Positions 18,959-32,034 of a stretch of DNA of 32,183 nucleotides are shown here, one piece after another (position 1 is the stretch's first letter; each line of letters begins with the position of its first letter). The stretch is from Wenzhouxiangella sp. (GTDB taxonomy: Bacteria > Pseudomonadota > Gammaproteobacteria > Xanthomonadales > Wenzhouxiangellaceae), in NCBI GenBank assembly GCA_007123055.1, contig SKSJ01000134.1, positions 1 to 32,183 of the forward strand, given 5' to 3'. The position numbers were made by a program, and so were the translations under genes. Below the pieces are notes generated by a model. That model was not told the origin of the DNA. It worked only from the letters and a program-made list of their open reading frames with translations, and ran no database searches.

Positions 18959-20407
18959 CTAGTGGGCCAGGCTGCGCCCCAGTTCGCGGTACCGTTCGGC
19001 TCGCTGATCGCCCATGAGTTCCAGCCTCTCGGCCAGGGCACCGACGGCTTCGGGCAACCCCGGAATGGATCGGCGGCTGCGGCTCATGAGGTCGATCAGG
19101 AAACTGGCGCCATCGACGTCTCCCCACCGGGCCAGGCGCCCCGCCAACACAACTGCGCGGCGCAGCGGGATTTTCGGACGGTCGTTGCGGGTCTGACGAT
19201 ACCGGCGGAAGGTCTCGATAATGAGTTCACGCTGCTCCCCGGTCTCGCCGGGCAGGCGCAGAATGCGGTTGGCGATGACGTCCAGTTCCTGATCGTCCGG
19301 GCGCAAACGACAGGCTGTGAAGTAAAGCGACCACAAACGGACTTCATCGCCATGCCGACTCAGCAGCGGTCGCAGCAAACGTTTGGCCTTTGCCGGCTCG
19401 AGATCGGCGAGCGCCTCTTCGGCAGCGGCAATCGCTCGACGGTCTTCACGCACATCCTCGCCTTCCGGTGCATCGAGCACGTCTCGGCGCACCTGCCCGG
19501 CCCAGACCGCCAGCATCCCGAGCAGGGCACCGCTGACGATGCCTCCGGCATGGGCCTCGTAGGCAATATTGCTGCCTTCGTAGATCATCCAGGCCAGCAA
19601 CTCCCAACCCAGCCACAGGGGCAACAGGATGAGCGCCGGGGCGCGCACGTAGTCGAAATAGACGAATGCCCAGTAGAAGAAGCGCACCTTGCGCAGGCCA
19701 TAGACCACTGCAAAGGCGCCCATCAGCCCGGCAATGGCGCCGGACGCGCCCAGCGAACCGGTCGCCATGCCCCAGTTGATCGCCAGCGAAGCGCCGGCAG
19801 CGCCGAGACCCGCGGCCAGGTAAAGCGCCAGATAGCGAACACCGCCCAGCGCCGGTTCCAGCAACAGCCCCAGCAGCACCAGAAACAGCATATTGCCAAC
19901 CAGGTGGCCGATTCCGCCGTGCATGAACATGTGCATCAACAAACCGCCCGGGGCGATCTCGTCGAAGCGAAGCAGGTAGCGGCGGGTAAAGCTCTGCTCA
20001 CGGTCAGCCTCGAGTACCGATCGCGCCTGGCGCCACTGATCGAGTTGATCGCTGTCGGGATCGATGATCAGGCCGTCCTCCAGCGCATCGTGGAAAGCCG
20101 GCTCGCTGTCGATCACCATCAAACGCAGGCGATCCCCCCAATGCGCTTCTCCCGCAGGAGGCAGCCACTCGTCGACCTCTTCCGGATCGACATCCAGCCC
20201 ATAGGTGAACTCGGCCCATTCGTTGAACCAGACCCACTCCAGCTCAAGCACACCGGAATCGATGTAGCGGTCGGCGGCGGCCTCCTCGATATGCCGATCA
20301 CCGCCTTGCAGCAGCAAGAACACCAGCAGGTTGGCCAGCACCAGCGCCGCGGTGACGTATGGAAAATTCTCTCGTGTCGGCTTTCTGTCCAGCGGCAGAA
20401 TCAGCAC
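18959..20407 (-). CDS. Rhomboid family intramembrane serine protease
   Basis: MFMHGGIGHLVGNMLFLVLLG, GASGAIAGLMGAF (GxSG), AYEAHAGGIVSGALLG (catalytic His), with an N-terminal extension and a C-terminal helical domain. Confidence 0.92.
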   Translation of the reverse strand: MLILPLDRKPTRENFPYVTAALVLANLLVFLLLQGGDRHIEEAAADRYIDSGVLELEWVWFNEWAEFTYGLDVDPEEVDEWLPPAGEAHWGDRLRLMVIDSEPAFHDALEDGLIIDPDSDQLDQWRQARSVLEADREQSFTRRYLLRFDEIAPGGLLMHMFMHGGIGHLVGNMLFLVLLGLLLEPALGGVRYLALYLAAGLGAAGASLAINWGMATGSLGASGAIAGLMGAFAVVYGLRKVRFFYWAFVYFDYVRAPALILLPLWLGWELLAWMIYEGSNIAYEAHAGGIVSGALLGMLAVWAGQVRRDVLDAPEGEDVREDRRAIAAAEEALADLEPAKAKRLLRPLLSRHGDEVRLWSLYFTACRLRPDDQELDVIANRILRLPGETGEQRELIIETFRRYRQTRNDRPKIPLRRAVVLAGRLARWGDVDGASFLIDLMSRSRRSIPGLPEAVGALAERLELMGDQRAERYRELGRSLAH

Positions 20408-21928: not shown

Positions 21929-22450
21929 TCAACTGGTAGCCGCCGCCGGCTCGCCCGGGGGGTCGCCTTCCCCCTTCGGCGGCAACATGCGCAACCAGAT
22001 CAGCCAGACGACCAGGGCGTCGAGAATGATCAGGGCCTGCCAGAGATAGAGGTGAAACCAGTTGAACCATGTCATGTTCCACTGGCCGAGGTAAAACAGG
22101 CTGATGATACGCACCAGATTCAGCCCCTGAATGGCGAAGAATCCAATGGCAAATCCGATCAGCTTGTGCTTGAGGGGGGCGGGAAACGCGAAGATGGCGG
22201 CGAACAGAATGATCAGCGCCTCGACCCCGTTGCACCCCGGCTCGATGCTGACGGCGAAGCCGGAGTCGAGGTCCCGGATCACCTTGCCGACCGATTCGAC
22301 GCCGCTGTCGAACAACTCGATGATGAAAACGCTGATACTGGCGATCACGCTGGTGAAGGGCAGGATCACGGCCTCTTGCACCGGCTGCAACACCTCGACG
22401 GTGAACAGCACGAGCAGCAGGACCACGAACAGGATTGAAAAACGCAGCAT
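21929..22450 (-). CDS. xrtH: Exosortase H (XrtH-like)
   Basis: Multi-TM protein with SIEPGCNGVEALIILFAAIFAFPAPLKHKLIGFAIGFFAIQGLNLVRIISLFYLGQWN...FHLYLWQALIILDALVVWLIWLR: exosortase Cys/Arg/His arrangement; ATG at 22450. Confidence 0.85.
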   Translation of the reverse strand: MLRFSILFVVLLLVLFTVEVLQPVQEAVILPFTSVIASISVFIIELFDSGVESVGKVIRDLDSGFAVSIEPGCNGVEALIILFAAIFAFPAPLKHKLIGFAIGFFAIQGLNLVRIISLFYLGQWNMTWFNWFHLYLWQALIILDALVVWLIWLRMLPPKGEGDPPGEPAAATS

Positions 22451-22706
22451 CGACTCTTTATCGCCTGGTTGAAGAAGGGTTGCTTTCCGGGCGCCCATAT
22501 TACCGAAACTGCAGTGAGCGCGCAGGTTCGCGTGGTGTACAGCCGGACCGGGCGCCACCCTTGCGTGGTAGCATTGACAGCCAGTTTATGCACCGTTGAT
22601 CCAGCCCGATGATCGCCAGTACCCGCCGACACCATCCATGCTTTCGCCGACCCGAGCCGGGTAGCCGACATGGCAGGAAACGAGCCGCCTGAACATCGAA
22701 CTCACG

Positions 22707-27257: not shown

Positions 27258-28556
27258 ATGAGCGAAGAGTTCCGATTCAACCACCACAAACTGTCCAACC
27301 GCATCCTGATCGGTCTCGGTCTGGGACTGGTGGTAGGCCTGCTGATGAATTTCACCATCGCCGACACCGAGTGGGCGAGAACCTGGCTGATCGGCGGGCT
27401 GTTCGAGGTCGTCGGCGAAGGCTTCGTTCGATTCCTGAGCATGCTGATCGTGCCGATCGTGTTCGTCTCTCTGATTACGGGCGTTTCTTCCCTGGCCGAC
27501 CCCAAGAGCCTTGGTCGGGTGGGCGGCAAGGCCATCGGGCTGTACCTGATCACCACCGGCATCGCCATCACGCTGGCGCTGTCGGCCGGTCAATTATTTC
27601 AGACCGGAGTTGGCGCGAGCCCGCCGGACATGGAGCCGCCACAGATATCCGACGCACCTCCATTCACCGAGGTACTGGTGGACCTGATTCCGCGTAACCC
27701 CGTGGAGGCGATGGCCGAGGGCAACATGCTGCCGATCATTGTCTTTGCCATCCTGCTGGGTCTGGCGATGTCGTTTGCCGGCACACCCGGTAAACGATGT
27801 TCTGATTTCTTCGCCGACTTCATGGAAGTGGTGATGAAACTGGTCGGTATCGTCATGCTCATCGCGCCATACGGGGTATTCGCATTGATTGCCGGCATGG
27901 CGGCGACCACGGGCTGGGGCACGTTTGCCGGGGTGCTGAAATATGTGGTCCTCGTACTTGCGGTGCTGATCTTGCACGCAGCTGTGGTTTACCCGACATT
28001 GCTCAAGCTGTTTACCGGCCTGAGTCCATTGGTGTTCTATCGACAGATCCGTGACGTGCTGGCTTTCGCCTTTTCCACGGCCTCATCGGGTGCGACCATT
28101 CCGGTCACGCTGCGTGCGGTACAGGAGCGGCTGGGAGCAAGCAACCGGGTCAGTTCCTTCACGGTGCCGCTGGGCGCGACCATCAACATGGACGGCACCG
28201 CGATCATGCAGGGCATTGCCGTGGGCTTCATTGCCCAATTCTACGGCGTGGACCTGAGCTTCACACAATACCTGATGGTCGTATTCATGGTCATCATGGC
28301 CTCGATCGGTGCAGCCGGTGTGCCGGGCGTCGGGCTCATTCTTCTGGCCGGCGTGCTGTCGCAGGTCGGACTGCCGGCAGAGGGCATCGCGCTCATCCTT
28401 GGCGTTGATCGACTGCTCGACATGACGCGCACCGCGGTCAACGTGACCGGGGATGCCACCGTGACGTGCATCGTCGCCGACGGGGAGAACGAGCTGGATC
28501 GCGAGAGATTCTACGACACGGAGCTACCGGAGCCCGACCGGAAGGCGCGGGCCTGA
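27258..28556 (+). CDS. Dicarboxylate/amino acid:cation symporter (DAACS family)
   Basis: FLSMLIVPIVFVSLITGVSSL, AFSTASSGATIPVTL, SFTVPLGATINMDGTAIMQGI, LILGVDRLLDMTRTAVNVTGDATVTCIVA. Confidence 0.95.
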   Translation: MSEEFRFNHHKLSNRILIGLGLGLVVGLLMNFTIADTEWARTWLIGGLFEVVGEGFVRFLSMLIVPIVFVSLITGVSSLADPKSLGRVGGKAIGLYLITTGIAITLALSAGQLFQTGVGASPPDMEPPQISDAPPFTEVLVDLIPRNPVEAMAEGNMLPIIVFAILLGLAMSFAGTPGKRCSDFFADFMEVVMKLVGIVMLIAPYGVFALIAGMAATTGWGTFAGVLKYVVLVLAVLILHAAVVYPTLLKLFTGLSPLVFYRQIRDVLAFAFSTASSGATIPVTLRAVQERLGASNRVSSFTVPLGATINMDGTAIMQGIAVGFIAQFYGVDLSFTQYLMVVFMVIMASIGAAGVPGVGLILLAGVLSQVGLPAEGIALILGVDRLLDMTRTAVNVTGDATVTCIVADGENELDRERFYDTELPEPDRKARA

Positions 28557-28578: not shown

Positions 28579-29538
28579 TCAGCGGGCGGCGGTTCCCGGC
28601 AGGGCACCGTTCAGGGCCAGGGCCGAGCGGGCGTCGACACTCAACCCTTCTGGATTTTCCAGTTGATCGACATAGGCCAGGCGATGCTGCAAGCCACTGC
28701 GGCTGGCGATCTGGATGGCCAGCCCGGGGCGGGCATTAAGTTCGAGCACCAGCGGTCCATGCTGCTCATCCAGCACCATATCGACCCCCAGGTAGCCCAG
28801 GGGCACGGCGTCGAAACAGCGTGCCGAAAGCCGGATGAGGTCCTGCCACCCCGGTAACTGGAACTCAGTCACCGGCGCACCGGTATCGGGGTGCTGGGTG
28901 ACAATGTCGTGATGCATCACGGCCGAGAGGGTTCGTCCAGAAGGCATGTCGATGCCCGCACCGATAGCGCCCTGATGCAGGTTCGCCTTGCCGCCGGAGC
29001 GACGTGTGGGCAGGCGCATCATCGCCACTACGGGCACGCCACGAAAGACGATGACACGGATGTCCGGCACGCCCTGTGGCGCGATGGGATGCAGGGCCGG
29101 ATCGGTGCGCACCAGGGCTTCGACCAATGCGGCGTCCAACTGTCCGGCCAGGGAATACATGCCGGCCAGGATGCCGGAAACATGATATTGAATATCGGCC
29201 AGAGTCAACAACTCTCCGCCGGGAGTGACCCAGTCCTTGCCACGTTTGCCGAGGGTGACCAGAACGCCGTCACCGCCGGTCCCCATCGCCGGCTTGATGG
29301 CAAACGCTTCGAGTGTCCGCAAACGCCGCGCCAGGGCGCCGGCCTGGTATTGCCCGCGAACCACCCCCAGTTGCTCGGGAACGGCAATACCGTGGGCCTT
29401 GAGCCGCGCCTTGCACAAAATCTTGTCGTCGACCAGCGGGTAGAGCCGTCTAGGGTTATGCTCGAGCACGTACTTGGCGTTGCGGGCATTGATTCCCAGC
29501 ACACCCGCAGCTCGAAGCTTGCGGACCAGGCCGATCAC
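28579..29538 (-). CDS. ATP-grasp alpha-L-glutamate ligase-like protein (RimK-related)
   Basis: GINARNAKYVLEHNPRRLYPLVDDKILCKARLKAHGIAVPEQLGVV, FAIKPAMGTGGDGVLV, YLGVDMVLDEQHGPLVLELNARPGLAIQIA: hallmark of the RimK-related ligase-like family (TIGR02291 from memory). Confidence 0.9.
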   Translation of the reverse strand: MIGLVRKLRAAGVLGINARNAKYVLEHNPRRLYPLVDDKILCKARLKAHGIAVPEQLGVVRGQYQAGALARRLRTLEAFAIKPAMGTGGDGVLVTLGKRGKDWVTPGGELLTLADIQYHVSGILAGMYSLAGQLDAALVEALVRTDPALHPIAPQGVPDIRVIVFRGVPVVAMMRLPTRRSGGKANLHQGAIGAGIDMPSGRTLSAVMHHDIVTQHPDTGAPVTEFQLPGWQDLIRLSARCFDAVPLGYLGVDMVLDEQHGPLVLELNARPGLAIQIASRSGLQHRLAYVDQLENPEGLSVDARSALALNGALPGTAAR

Positions 29539-31061
29539 AGTTCTTTGGCCAGGCGACGGAAACGGATCAGTTCCGAAACTCGATAACCGGAATATCGGCC
29601 CATCAAGAGTGTCAGCCCAAGCACGGTCAGCAATAGTTCGGGGAAGACGAACACCATGTGCTGAATGGATTCACGGGTCATCATGTAAAACGCCAGGCTG
29701 GCAATCAGAGCCGTTCCGGCAGCTTCGATCAGGGCCTCGTGGGGGCCGCGTTCCTCCCAGACGATGGACATGCGTTCGATGACCATCGCGATGATGACCA
29801 TGGGAAACAAACCCACGGACAGTCCGATATCCCAGCCAACCTGGTGGCTGAAGAGACTCAATGTCACCATCAGCGCAACGACAATGATCAGAACCGCGGT
29901 CAGTCGGGGGACAAGCAACAGGCGTAGCTTTTCCAGGTAGAAGCGAAGCAGCAACCCGCTGCTGACGACAACGCTGAACAACACCAGGCCACCGATCAGG
30001 CCGGTTTCGCGGAATGCCAGGGCAATCAGCACCGGCATGAACGTGCCGAAGGAACGCAAGCCGATGACATTGCGCATCAGCACCATGATGAATCCGCCCA
30101 CGGGGACAAGCAGCAGAACCGCATAAACCGTTTGCGCCTGCACCGGGAGCTCCAACATGCTGAACCGCGAAGCCCAGGCGTCATGGCGCGCAGCGCGCTG
30201 TTCGGCAAGATCGAGGGCACCCAGTTCATTGCGGCGGATCGACCAGCTTAAATCCTGAAGCTCCGCCCCCTCCACGGTGACCACAGGCTGCTCGCCTCGC
30301 CACCAGACCAGAAAATTCTGGGGCAGGCCCTGGCGTCCGCTTTCGGGATCGAAAAACAACCACTGCCGGCCATTGTGAACGGCGAGCAGGCGCTCCGGGC
30401 GGGCCCTGCGTTCAGTGGCAGTCAGGGTGAAGCCGTTGACCTGCTCGGTAGGAATGCGGGCGCCGGCCAGCAGGGTCCGTGCGATTCGCACCGGGTTATT
30501 CCGGTATTCTGGACTACCGAGGAACAGCGCCATTTCCTCGCTCGGCGAGGGACTGTTGATACGGGCCACCATTTCGGCGGCGAAAGAAGCGATATCGGCC
30601 GATTGACGCCGAACGTCATCGACAATGGATTGCATTGCCGTGTCAAAAGGCTCGGGCAGTTCGGGTATTTCCGGGTAGGAGGGAACCGGTGCAAACGGCT
30701 GTTCACCGCGGTCCGCGTAGAAAACGCCGCTGTAATAGAGCAGTTGACGTTGACTTGCCCGACGCACGGCCCAGATAGCACCACGATCCCAGCGGTTGCT
30801 CTCGGTCGTCAATCCGTAACCACGGGAAATGAAATTCTCGTGGAGCAGACCGAGCCCCGGAGTGACCGCCGGCAAAGCCAGTTCGACCTTGACCGGTCCC
30901 GCTTCGGGCAGAATGACCAGCCTGACTTCCGCCGTCCAGGATTCCTCGATTTCCCCGGGTTTGAGGGGATAGCCCAGGCTGAAATGCTTGTGCGCGACCA
31001 GTAGGAGACCGACAGCGACCAGGGTGAGGCTGACGACCAGCCAATGGACCGAGCGACTCAT
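29535..31061 (-). CDS. Inactive transglutaminase fused to seven transmembrane helices
   Basis: One N-terminal TM, a periplasmic transglutaminase-like domain (ARTLLAGARIPTEQVNGFTL...QWLFFDPESGRQGLP), then a multi-TM C-terminus. No cysteine in the whole translation, so no canonical transglutaminase catalytic Cys. 4-bp overlaps on both sides. Confidence 0.88.
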   Translation of the reverse strand: MSRSVHWLVVSLTLVAVGLLLVAHKHFSLGYPLKPGEIEESWTAEVRLVILPEAGPVKVELALPAVTPGLGLLHENFISRGYGLTTESNRWDRGAIWAVRRASQRQLLYYSGVFYADRGEQPFAPVPSYPEIPELPEPFDTAMQSIVDDVRRQSADIASFAAEMVARINSPSPSEEMALFLGSPEYRNNPVRIARTLLAGARIPTEQVNGFTLTATERRARPERLLAVHNGRQWLFFDPESGRQGLPQNFLVWWRGEQPVVTVEGAELQDLSWSIRRNELGALDLAEQRAARHDAWASRFSMLELPVQAQTVYAVLLLVPVGGFIMVLMRNVIGLRSFGTFMPVLIALAFRETGLIGGLVLFSVVVSSGLLLRFYLEKLRLLLVPRLTAVLIIVVALMVTLSLFSHQVGWDIGLSVGLFPMVIIAMVIERMSIVWEERGPHEALIEAAGTALIASLAFYMMTRESIQHMVFVFPELLLTVLGLTLLMGRYSGYRVSELIRFRRLAKEL

Positions 31062-31597
31062 CCGTCGTTATCCTCGGGTGAACACTGCGGCGAGAATAGA
31101 AACGTCGAACCGCTGTCGATCAGCGCATAGCCTTCGAGGGCGCTGCGCCCAAGCAGTAATGGATAAATGAAGTTGCTACGATCGATCAGGTTGACCTCGA
31201 CCACCCGACGTTGGTCACCGATGCAGACCGGCAACTCGATAACCGGACGGCGCTGGTGATCACCCCTGTGCCGAACGATCCGGACGTTCCGAATCAGCGG
31301 CTTCTCAAGAGTGACATGATTTTCACTTTCCGGGTCAGTAACCGTAAACCGCACCCAGCGCTCACCATCCCGGCGAAAGCGCTCGATACCGGCTGCATCC
31401 AGCGAGGAGGTGGCCGCACCGCTATCAAGCTTTGCCTTCATGGAGAATTTACCATCAAGAAGCTCAACCCGCTCAACCCATCCGAAGACCTCCAGATGAC
31501 GCTCCTCGAAATCGTCGGCCAAGGCAAGGCCGAAGCCCGCAAGCATCGTCAAGCCACAAAGAAAGCCCCGATTTGAAATGGAGACCGGTCGTTTCAT
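31058..31597 (-). CDS. Retropepsin-like 'ATP-dependent zinc protease' family protein
   Basis: Signal peptide, FGWVERVELLDGKFSMKAKLDSGAATSSLDA (DSG active-site motif), LLLGRSALEGYALIDSGSTFLF; PF05618-type architecture. ATG at 31597 preferred over the TTG at 31633. Confidence 0.85.
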   Translation of the reverse strand: MKRPVSISNRGFLCGLTMLAGFGLALADDFEERHLEVFGWVERVELLDGKFSMKAKLDSGAATSSLDAAGIERFRRDGERWVRFTVTDPESENHVTLEKPLIRNVRIVRHRGDHQRRPVIELPVCIGDQRRVVEVNLIDRSNFIYPLLLGRSALEGYALIDSGSTFLFSPQCSPEDNDG

Positions 31598-31634
31598 ATT
31601 CGGCAAGGAGTTGAAAGGAATGAGCCGGGCCAAT

Positions 31635-31865: not shown

Positions 31866-31906
31866 GGCAAAAAGAAACCCCGCAACTCGGAGGAGCTACG
31901 GGGTTT
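31866..31906 (-). terminator. rRNA operon intrinsic terminator
   Basis: Minus strand AAACCCCG...CGGGGTTT hairpin (31875-31906), followed by CTTTTTG, immediately downstream of 5S. Confidence 0.9.
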
Positions 31907-31916
31907 CGGGTATAGA

Positions 31917-32034
31917 TGCCTGGCAGTGACCTACTCTCACACGGTAAGACCGCACTACCATCGGCGCTGGCGCGTTTCACTGCCGAGTTCGGGATGGGAT
32001 CGGGTGGTTCCACGCCGCTATTGCCGCCAGGCAA
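31917..32034 (-). rRNA. rrf: 5S ribosomal RNA
   Basis: Minus strand TGCCTGGCGGCAATAGCGGCGTGGAACCACCCGATCCCATCCCGAACTCGGCAGTGAAACGC...GTGAGAGTAGGTCACTGCCAGGCA, with complementary ends; about 118 nt. Confidence 0.97.

Follow-up and report, generated by a model that had tools for sequence, protein, structure and literature searches.

The closest described system to the locus reported here is the rlo operon of Pseudomonas aeruginosa, rloA-rloB-rloC (PA1768-PA1767-PA1766), which was named in 2025 and studied with knock-outs (PMC12239564). In that study, RloA is a secreted retropepsin-like dimer, whose crystal structures have been solved, and it cleaves runs of at least eight glutamates in vitro. 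P. aeruginosa has three redundant RloA proteases and depends on them to grow in the absence of salt. In the RloA-null strain this growth is fully restored, and the other defects are partially relieved, when rloB or rloC is lost. The rlo system influences survival under osmotic stress, biofilm formation and sensitivity to antibiotics, and the published phenotypes include cell-wall-like ones, namely altered cell shape and ampicillin sensitivity. A retropepsin is also paired with an ATP-grasp enzyme of the glutamate-ligase type in RimB-RimK (ribosomal protein S6 glutamylation, PMC11957791). It has been remarked that most rlo genomes hold rim as well.

Results and discussion

The window, the whole 32,183-nucleotide stretch of Wenzhouxiangella sp. 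DNA that was analysed, carries three minus-strand genes at 28579-31597, joined by two 4-bp overlaps (ORFs read from the window sequence; Table 1). Their order (protease, 7TM protein, ligase) is as the initial annotation had described, and profile searches against Pfam and NCBIfam bore out the PF05618, inactive transglutaminase/7TM and RimK-related families that it had named. Relatives show the same tightly packed order on a single strand. The trio is not a chance arrangement, since the same genes, order and strand recur in Gammaproteobacteria and a few other phyla. We are almost certain that it is an rlo operon. The system has already been named and genetically tested in P. aeruginosa (PMC12239564), so the window copy adds no new system type. 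The earlier view of an unknown system is therefore out of date, although it still holds for the substrate in the cell and for the role of RloB. Of what the initial annotation had listed as counting against it, an already characterised system does exist; a defined substrate is not given in the available part of that paper, and co-occurrence of the three families is conserved.

Table 1 Coordinates of the rlo genes, their sequence features and the adjoining RNA features in the window
Feature	Position	Strand	Remarks
rloA	31058..31597	-	ATG start at 31597; frame open to TTG at 31633 (ORF 31058-31633)
Predicted signal peptide of RloA, MKRPVSISNRGFLCGLTMLAGFGLALA before DD	31517..31597	-	Sequence reading and N-terminal hydropathy only
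KLDSGA active-site motif, D70	31415..31432	-	TTG-start numbering
rloA/rloB overlap, ATGA	31058..31061	-	Read from sequence
rloB	29535..31061	-	Inactive transglutaminase with 7 transmembrane helices; PF14400 4.2e-40, PF14402 2.6e-93
Periplasmic dead transglutaminase domain of RloB, residues 30-281	30219..30974	-	Model; no cysteine
RloB membrane domain, residues 307-490	29592..30143	-	Hydropathy and models
rloB/rloC overlap, GTGA	29535..29538	-	Read from sequence
rloC	28579..29538	-	ATP-grasp, alpha-L-glutamate-ligase-like; TIGR02291 379 bits, PF14397 4.7e-77
ELN, E266-x-N268, putative ATP-grasp metal-binding motif of RloC	28735..28743	-	E and N invariant in 81/81
Terminator-like hairpin between 5S rRNA gene and rloA	31874..31907	-	15-pair stem followed by TTTTT
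5S rRNA gene	31918-32031	-	

The closest relatives of the window RloB come from two Wenzhouxiangella assemblies (64% and 63% identity). The window genome (2.47 Mb in 259 contigs, 81% complete) also holds a RimB-RimK pair of cytosolic paralogues on contig C215, in agreement with the published remark on rim in rlo genomes. A ribosomal RNA operon lies upstream of the rlo operon in the window and in a second Wenzhouxiangella locus, L037; rloA follows the 5S gene after about 320 bases, with a similar placement in L037, and the edge of the window (to 32183) is probably inside the 23S gene. A promoter scan of the operon strand gave no signal above chance. On the other side, a sodium:dicarboxylate symporter family gene (27258-28556, plus strand) converges on rloC and ends 22 bases from it. 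Its nearest NCBIfam model is the glutamate/aspartate transporter GltP, with a score below the cut-off; the gene also occurs close to rloC in the Wenzhouxiangella loci L037 and L038 and is absent from all other fetched loci. Further away on the minus strand are an exosortase H (XrtH) gene (21929-22558; 197 bits, cut-off 86) and a rhomboid-type membrane protein (18959-20407) with a weak rhombosortase match below the cut-off.

The recurrence in other gammaproteobacteria claimed at the outset holds in two samples. Among 143 genomes of the class, 21 contain strong PF14402 matches and 20 have TIGR02291 above its cut-off, all of them within the 21; in the remaining one (G033) the ligase is cut by a contig end. 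In G114 the ligase is on a separate contig, with an assembly break there. PF05618 is adjacent to PF14402 in 20 of the 21, and co-occurrence in the class survey has a Fisher p of about 2e-23, a value that ignores the relatedness of the genomes. In the second sample, 80 named-genome loci picked by RloB similarity and thus uneven, rloC follows rloB at every locus and rloA precedes rloB at 58. ORF clustering around these 80 loci revealed no recurrent partner beyond the trio, just shared chromosomal context in some clades. A conserved neighbour gene as the substrate was accordingly rejected, which accords with the earlier remark that no substrate gene lies beside the cassette. RloA, RloB and RloC themselves contain no genome-encoded acidic stretch of four or more residues. 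A second group of PF14402 proteins (L031, L032, L033, L034 and L036) is divergent, scoring 124-184 bits, and possibly marks a sister system; in L031, L032 and L036 its neighbour is a ligase-like gene that scores under the TIGR02291 cut-off.

The window RloA matches PF05618 (2.6e-37), and its best solved matches are 9g58 (6e-26), 9g59 (2e-22) and the Legionella structure 2pma (5e-18). The name of the Pfam family, Zn_protease, is the sole ground for regarding the protein as a zinc enzyme. The nearest solved relatives are retropepsin-fold dimers with D(T/S)GA at the interface, D70 and G72 are invariant in all 59 operon proteases, and HExxH is absent from the sequence. Mutants of the active-site Asp in relatives effectively refute the zinc reading (PMC12239564). 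We rejected it on motif and solved relatives and consider it scarcely credible; the DSG aspartyl-type assignment of the initial annotation was correct. The DSG form is itself ordinary, as it occurs in six of the 59 operon proteases, the remainder having DTG.

K68, D70, R115, R129 and R152 of the window RloA align with the reported basic and catalytic residues that bind poly-glutamate, the numbering being matched to P. aeruginosa through 9g58 and residue spacing rather than a direct RloA alignment. D70, R129 and R152 are invariant among the 59 relatives. C137 and C184 align with the reported RloA disulfide and are kept in 43/59. On this alignment, the window protease would retain both the disulfide and the basic poly-glutamate contacts. 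The flap region is around eight residues shorter than in 9g58. In a tree of 99 proteases, secreted Rlo proteins split from RimB with an SH-aLRT of 99, and the window protease falls on the Rlo side, grouped with Wenzhouxiangella operon copies; the alignment is short and many inner forks of the tree are open. RimB identity, which would call for a protease in the RimB clade without a signal peptide, was rejected on this placement together with the predicted signal peptide. Together, motif and tree describe a D(T/S)GA retropepsin of a kind other than RimB, predicted to be secreted.

The window proteins score too low for NCBIfam to assign them the names RloA1, RloA2, RloA3 and RloB. RloA scores 138 bits against 210 for RloA3 and 120 against 280 for RloA1, and RloB scores 426 against 900. 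These cut-offs serve naming and do not define the system; they are set high, apparently for close Pseudomonas relatives. Scores below them bar strict-equivalog status for the window proteins, not rlo-type status.

RloB contains no cysteine in 508 residues, as had been stated, which fits a family that already bears the name inactive transglutaminases. A structure predicted from 20 sequences (mean pLDDT 84) places its periplasmic domain close to the transglutaminase-like 3isr (E 4e-8). Pfam matches, the missing cysteine, this predicted likeness and hydropathy together describe a dead transglutaminase with seven transmembrane helices. The membrane domain was modelled separately from 54 sequences (pLDDT 81); compared with solved and viral structures it gave no significant match and no transporter fold. 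Matches to Rnf/NQR subunits were weak (best TM-score 0.40, E 1.7) and were not relied on. Since the membrane domain has no solved match, structure favours neither transport nor scaffolding. An invariant G-Y-x-G-Y-R...E..RF motif is located in the C-terminus, past the last helix.

RloC exceeds the TIGR02291 cut-off of 314 bits and matches RimK (3e-9) in addition to its best Pfam family, PF14397. K39, K82, D253, E266 and N268 are kept in 81/81 sequences. We presume, from ATP-grasp enzymes generally, that E-x-N is the metal-binding site. Family match and invariant residues identify RloC as an ATP-grasp glutamate-ligase-like protein, which would add amino acids, as the initial annotation had proposed. 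The picture of an envelope-linked system with a cytosolic ATP-grasp enzyme, a secreted protease and a 7TM partner was right.

A link among the three proteins is required by the published genetics, in which loss of rloB or rloC suppresses the RloA-null defect (PMC12239564). In the mechanism we propose, cytosolic RloC would build chains of alpha-linked glutamate, either unattached or joined to a protein or peptide. RloB would carry or present the product across the inner membrane and hold it by means of the dead transglutaminase domain, capable perhaps of binding peptide though not of cutting it. The periplasmic RloA dimer would then cut the chains and so hold their quantity or length in check; excess uncut product would harm the envelope in low salt. 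The conserved gene order, the catalytic and substrate-contact residues and the placement in the secreted clade support this scheme, whereas the RloC product, export by RloB and the acceptor are what we infer. The family matches of all three proteins, the RloA structures as best solved matches and the invariable position of RloC after RloB speak for it, as do the published epistasis and poly-glutamate cleavage (PMC12239564). Against it stand the membrane domain of RloB, which matches no solved transporter, the rloBC genomes lacking a secreted Rlo protease (below), the name given in Pfam to the family of RloC, which suggests sugar transfer rather than glutamate, and the literature, in the available parts of which we found no enzymology of RloC. 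As a whole, we judge the mechanism of synthesis, presentation or export, and trimming to be evenly balanced between right and wrong.

RloB could instead be a sensor or scaffold and no transporter: its periplasmic domain would bind glutamate-rich or wall peptides and signal RloC to work or stop, RloA setting the level of the ligand. Related dead domains have been proposed as peptide-binding anchors (PMC3482391), so the domain could bind peptide without cutting it. The C-terminal motif could touch RloC, and the membrane domain resembles no solved transporter. We regard this as rather unlikely; it leaves unexplained how a poly-glutamate substrate comes to be outside the membrane, on the side of the protease. 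Alternatively, RloC might make no glutamate chains and instead extend a sugar-linked or peptidoglycan precursor with amino acids, and RloA might trim that peptide. PF14397 is a sugar-transfer-associated ATP-grasp family, and the published phenotypes are cell-wall-like. Set against these are the alpha-L-glutamate ligase-like NCBIfam match of RloC, above its cut-off, and the need of RloA in vitro for at least eight consecutive glutamates (PMC12239564), and such a precursor seems to us improbable.

The proposed trimming by RloA also has to accommodate the 22 of 80 loci where an adjacent rloA is absent (among them L043, L053-L055, L065, L067, L068, L070, L074-L076, L080, L082, L083, L088, L099 and L107). 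One of these, L085, is truncated where its contig stops. The other 21 genomes were searched for PF05618, the protease type being judged by N-terminal hydropathy and motif: 10 had none, eight had RimB-type cytosolic proteases only and three had a secreted Rlo type elsewhere. A secreted Rlo protease was thus undetected in 18 of the 80 rloBC genomes. Mapped onto the RloB tree, the distribution of adjacent rloA takes three changes, and rloBC-only loci occupy three separate clades (at least three lineages); their RloC proteins keep all the invariant residues. Steroidobacter gossypii and Lysobacter sp. CAU 1642 carry no metagenome-assembly label, so that incomplete assembly accounts less readily for the absence in these two; most of the other genomes do carry it. 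A search for a protease that consistently takes the place of RloA in the 18 genomes found none; PF13650 proteases, present in just eight of them, were rejected as a stand-in. We found no remark on such genomes in the available part of PMC12239564.

With at least 18 rloBC genomes in which no secreted Rlo protease was detected, RloA appears not to be needed everywhere to restrain RloBC. We tentatively raise the possibility, which we hold at somewhat under an even chance, that rloBC and not rloABC is the working core, RloA being a lineage-specific editor rather than a needed safety valve. Woeseiaceae, Steroidobacter and some Lysobacteraceae would then have dispensed with the secreted retropepsin, and their product would be either removed by another hydrolase or useful without being cut. 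These natural genomes offer a comparison for finding the RloC product, as does the compact window copy, from another lineage and with a single Rlo protease found.

Conclusions

Like RimB-RimK, the window locus pairs a retropepsin with an ATP-grasp enzyme of the glutamate-ligase type. RimB differs from the window RloA in being cytosolic, in having a GWREW-type N-terminus in most copies and in forming a separate clade, and RimB-RimK has no RloB partner. An inactive transglutaminase is also known from a hyper-vesiculation screen, hm2192 of Shewanella vesiculosa (PMC12096838). Compared with the P. aeruginosa rlo operon, the window protease has DSG in place of DTG, one Rlo protease was found in the 81% complete genome as against three, the genes share two 4-bp overlaps and the NCBIfam Rlo-name cut-offs are not reached. 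The gene order and the three protein types are the same in both, and, as judged by alignment, the window copy appears to keep the catalytic and poly-glutamate contact residues and the disulfide cysteines of the P. aeruginosa system.
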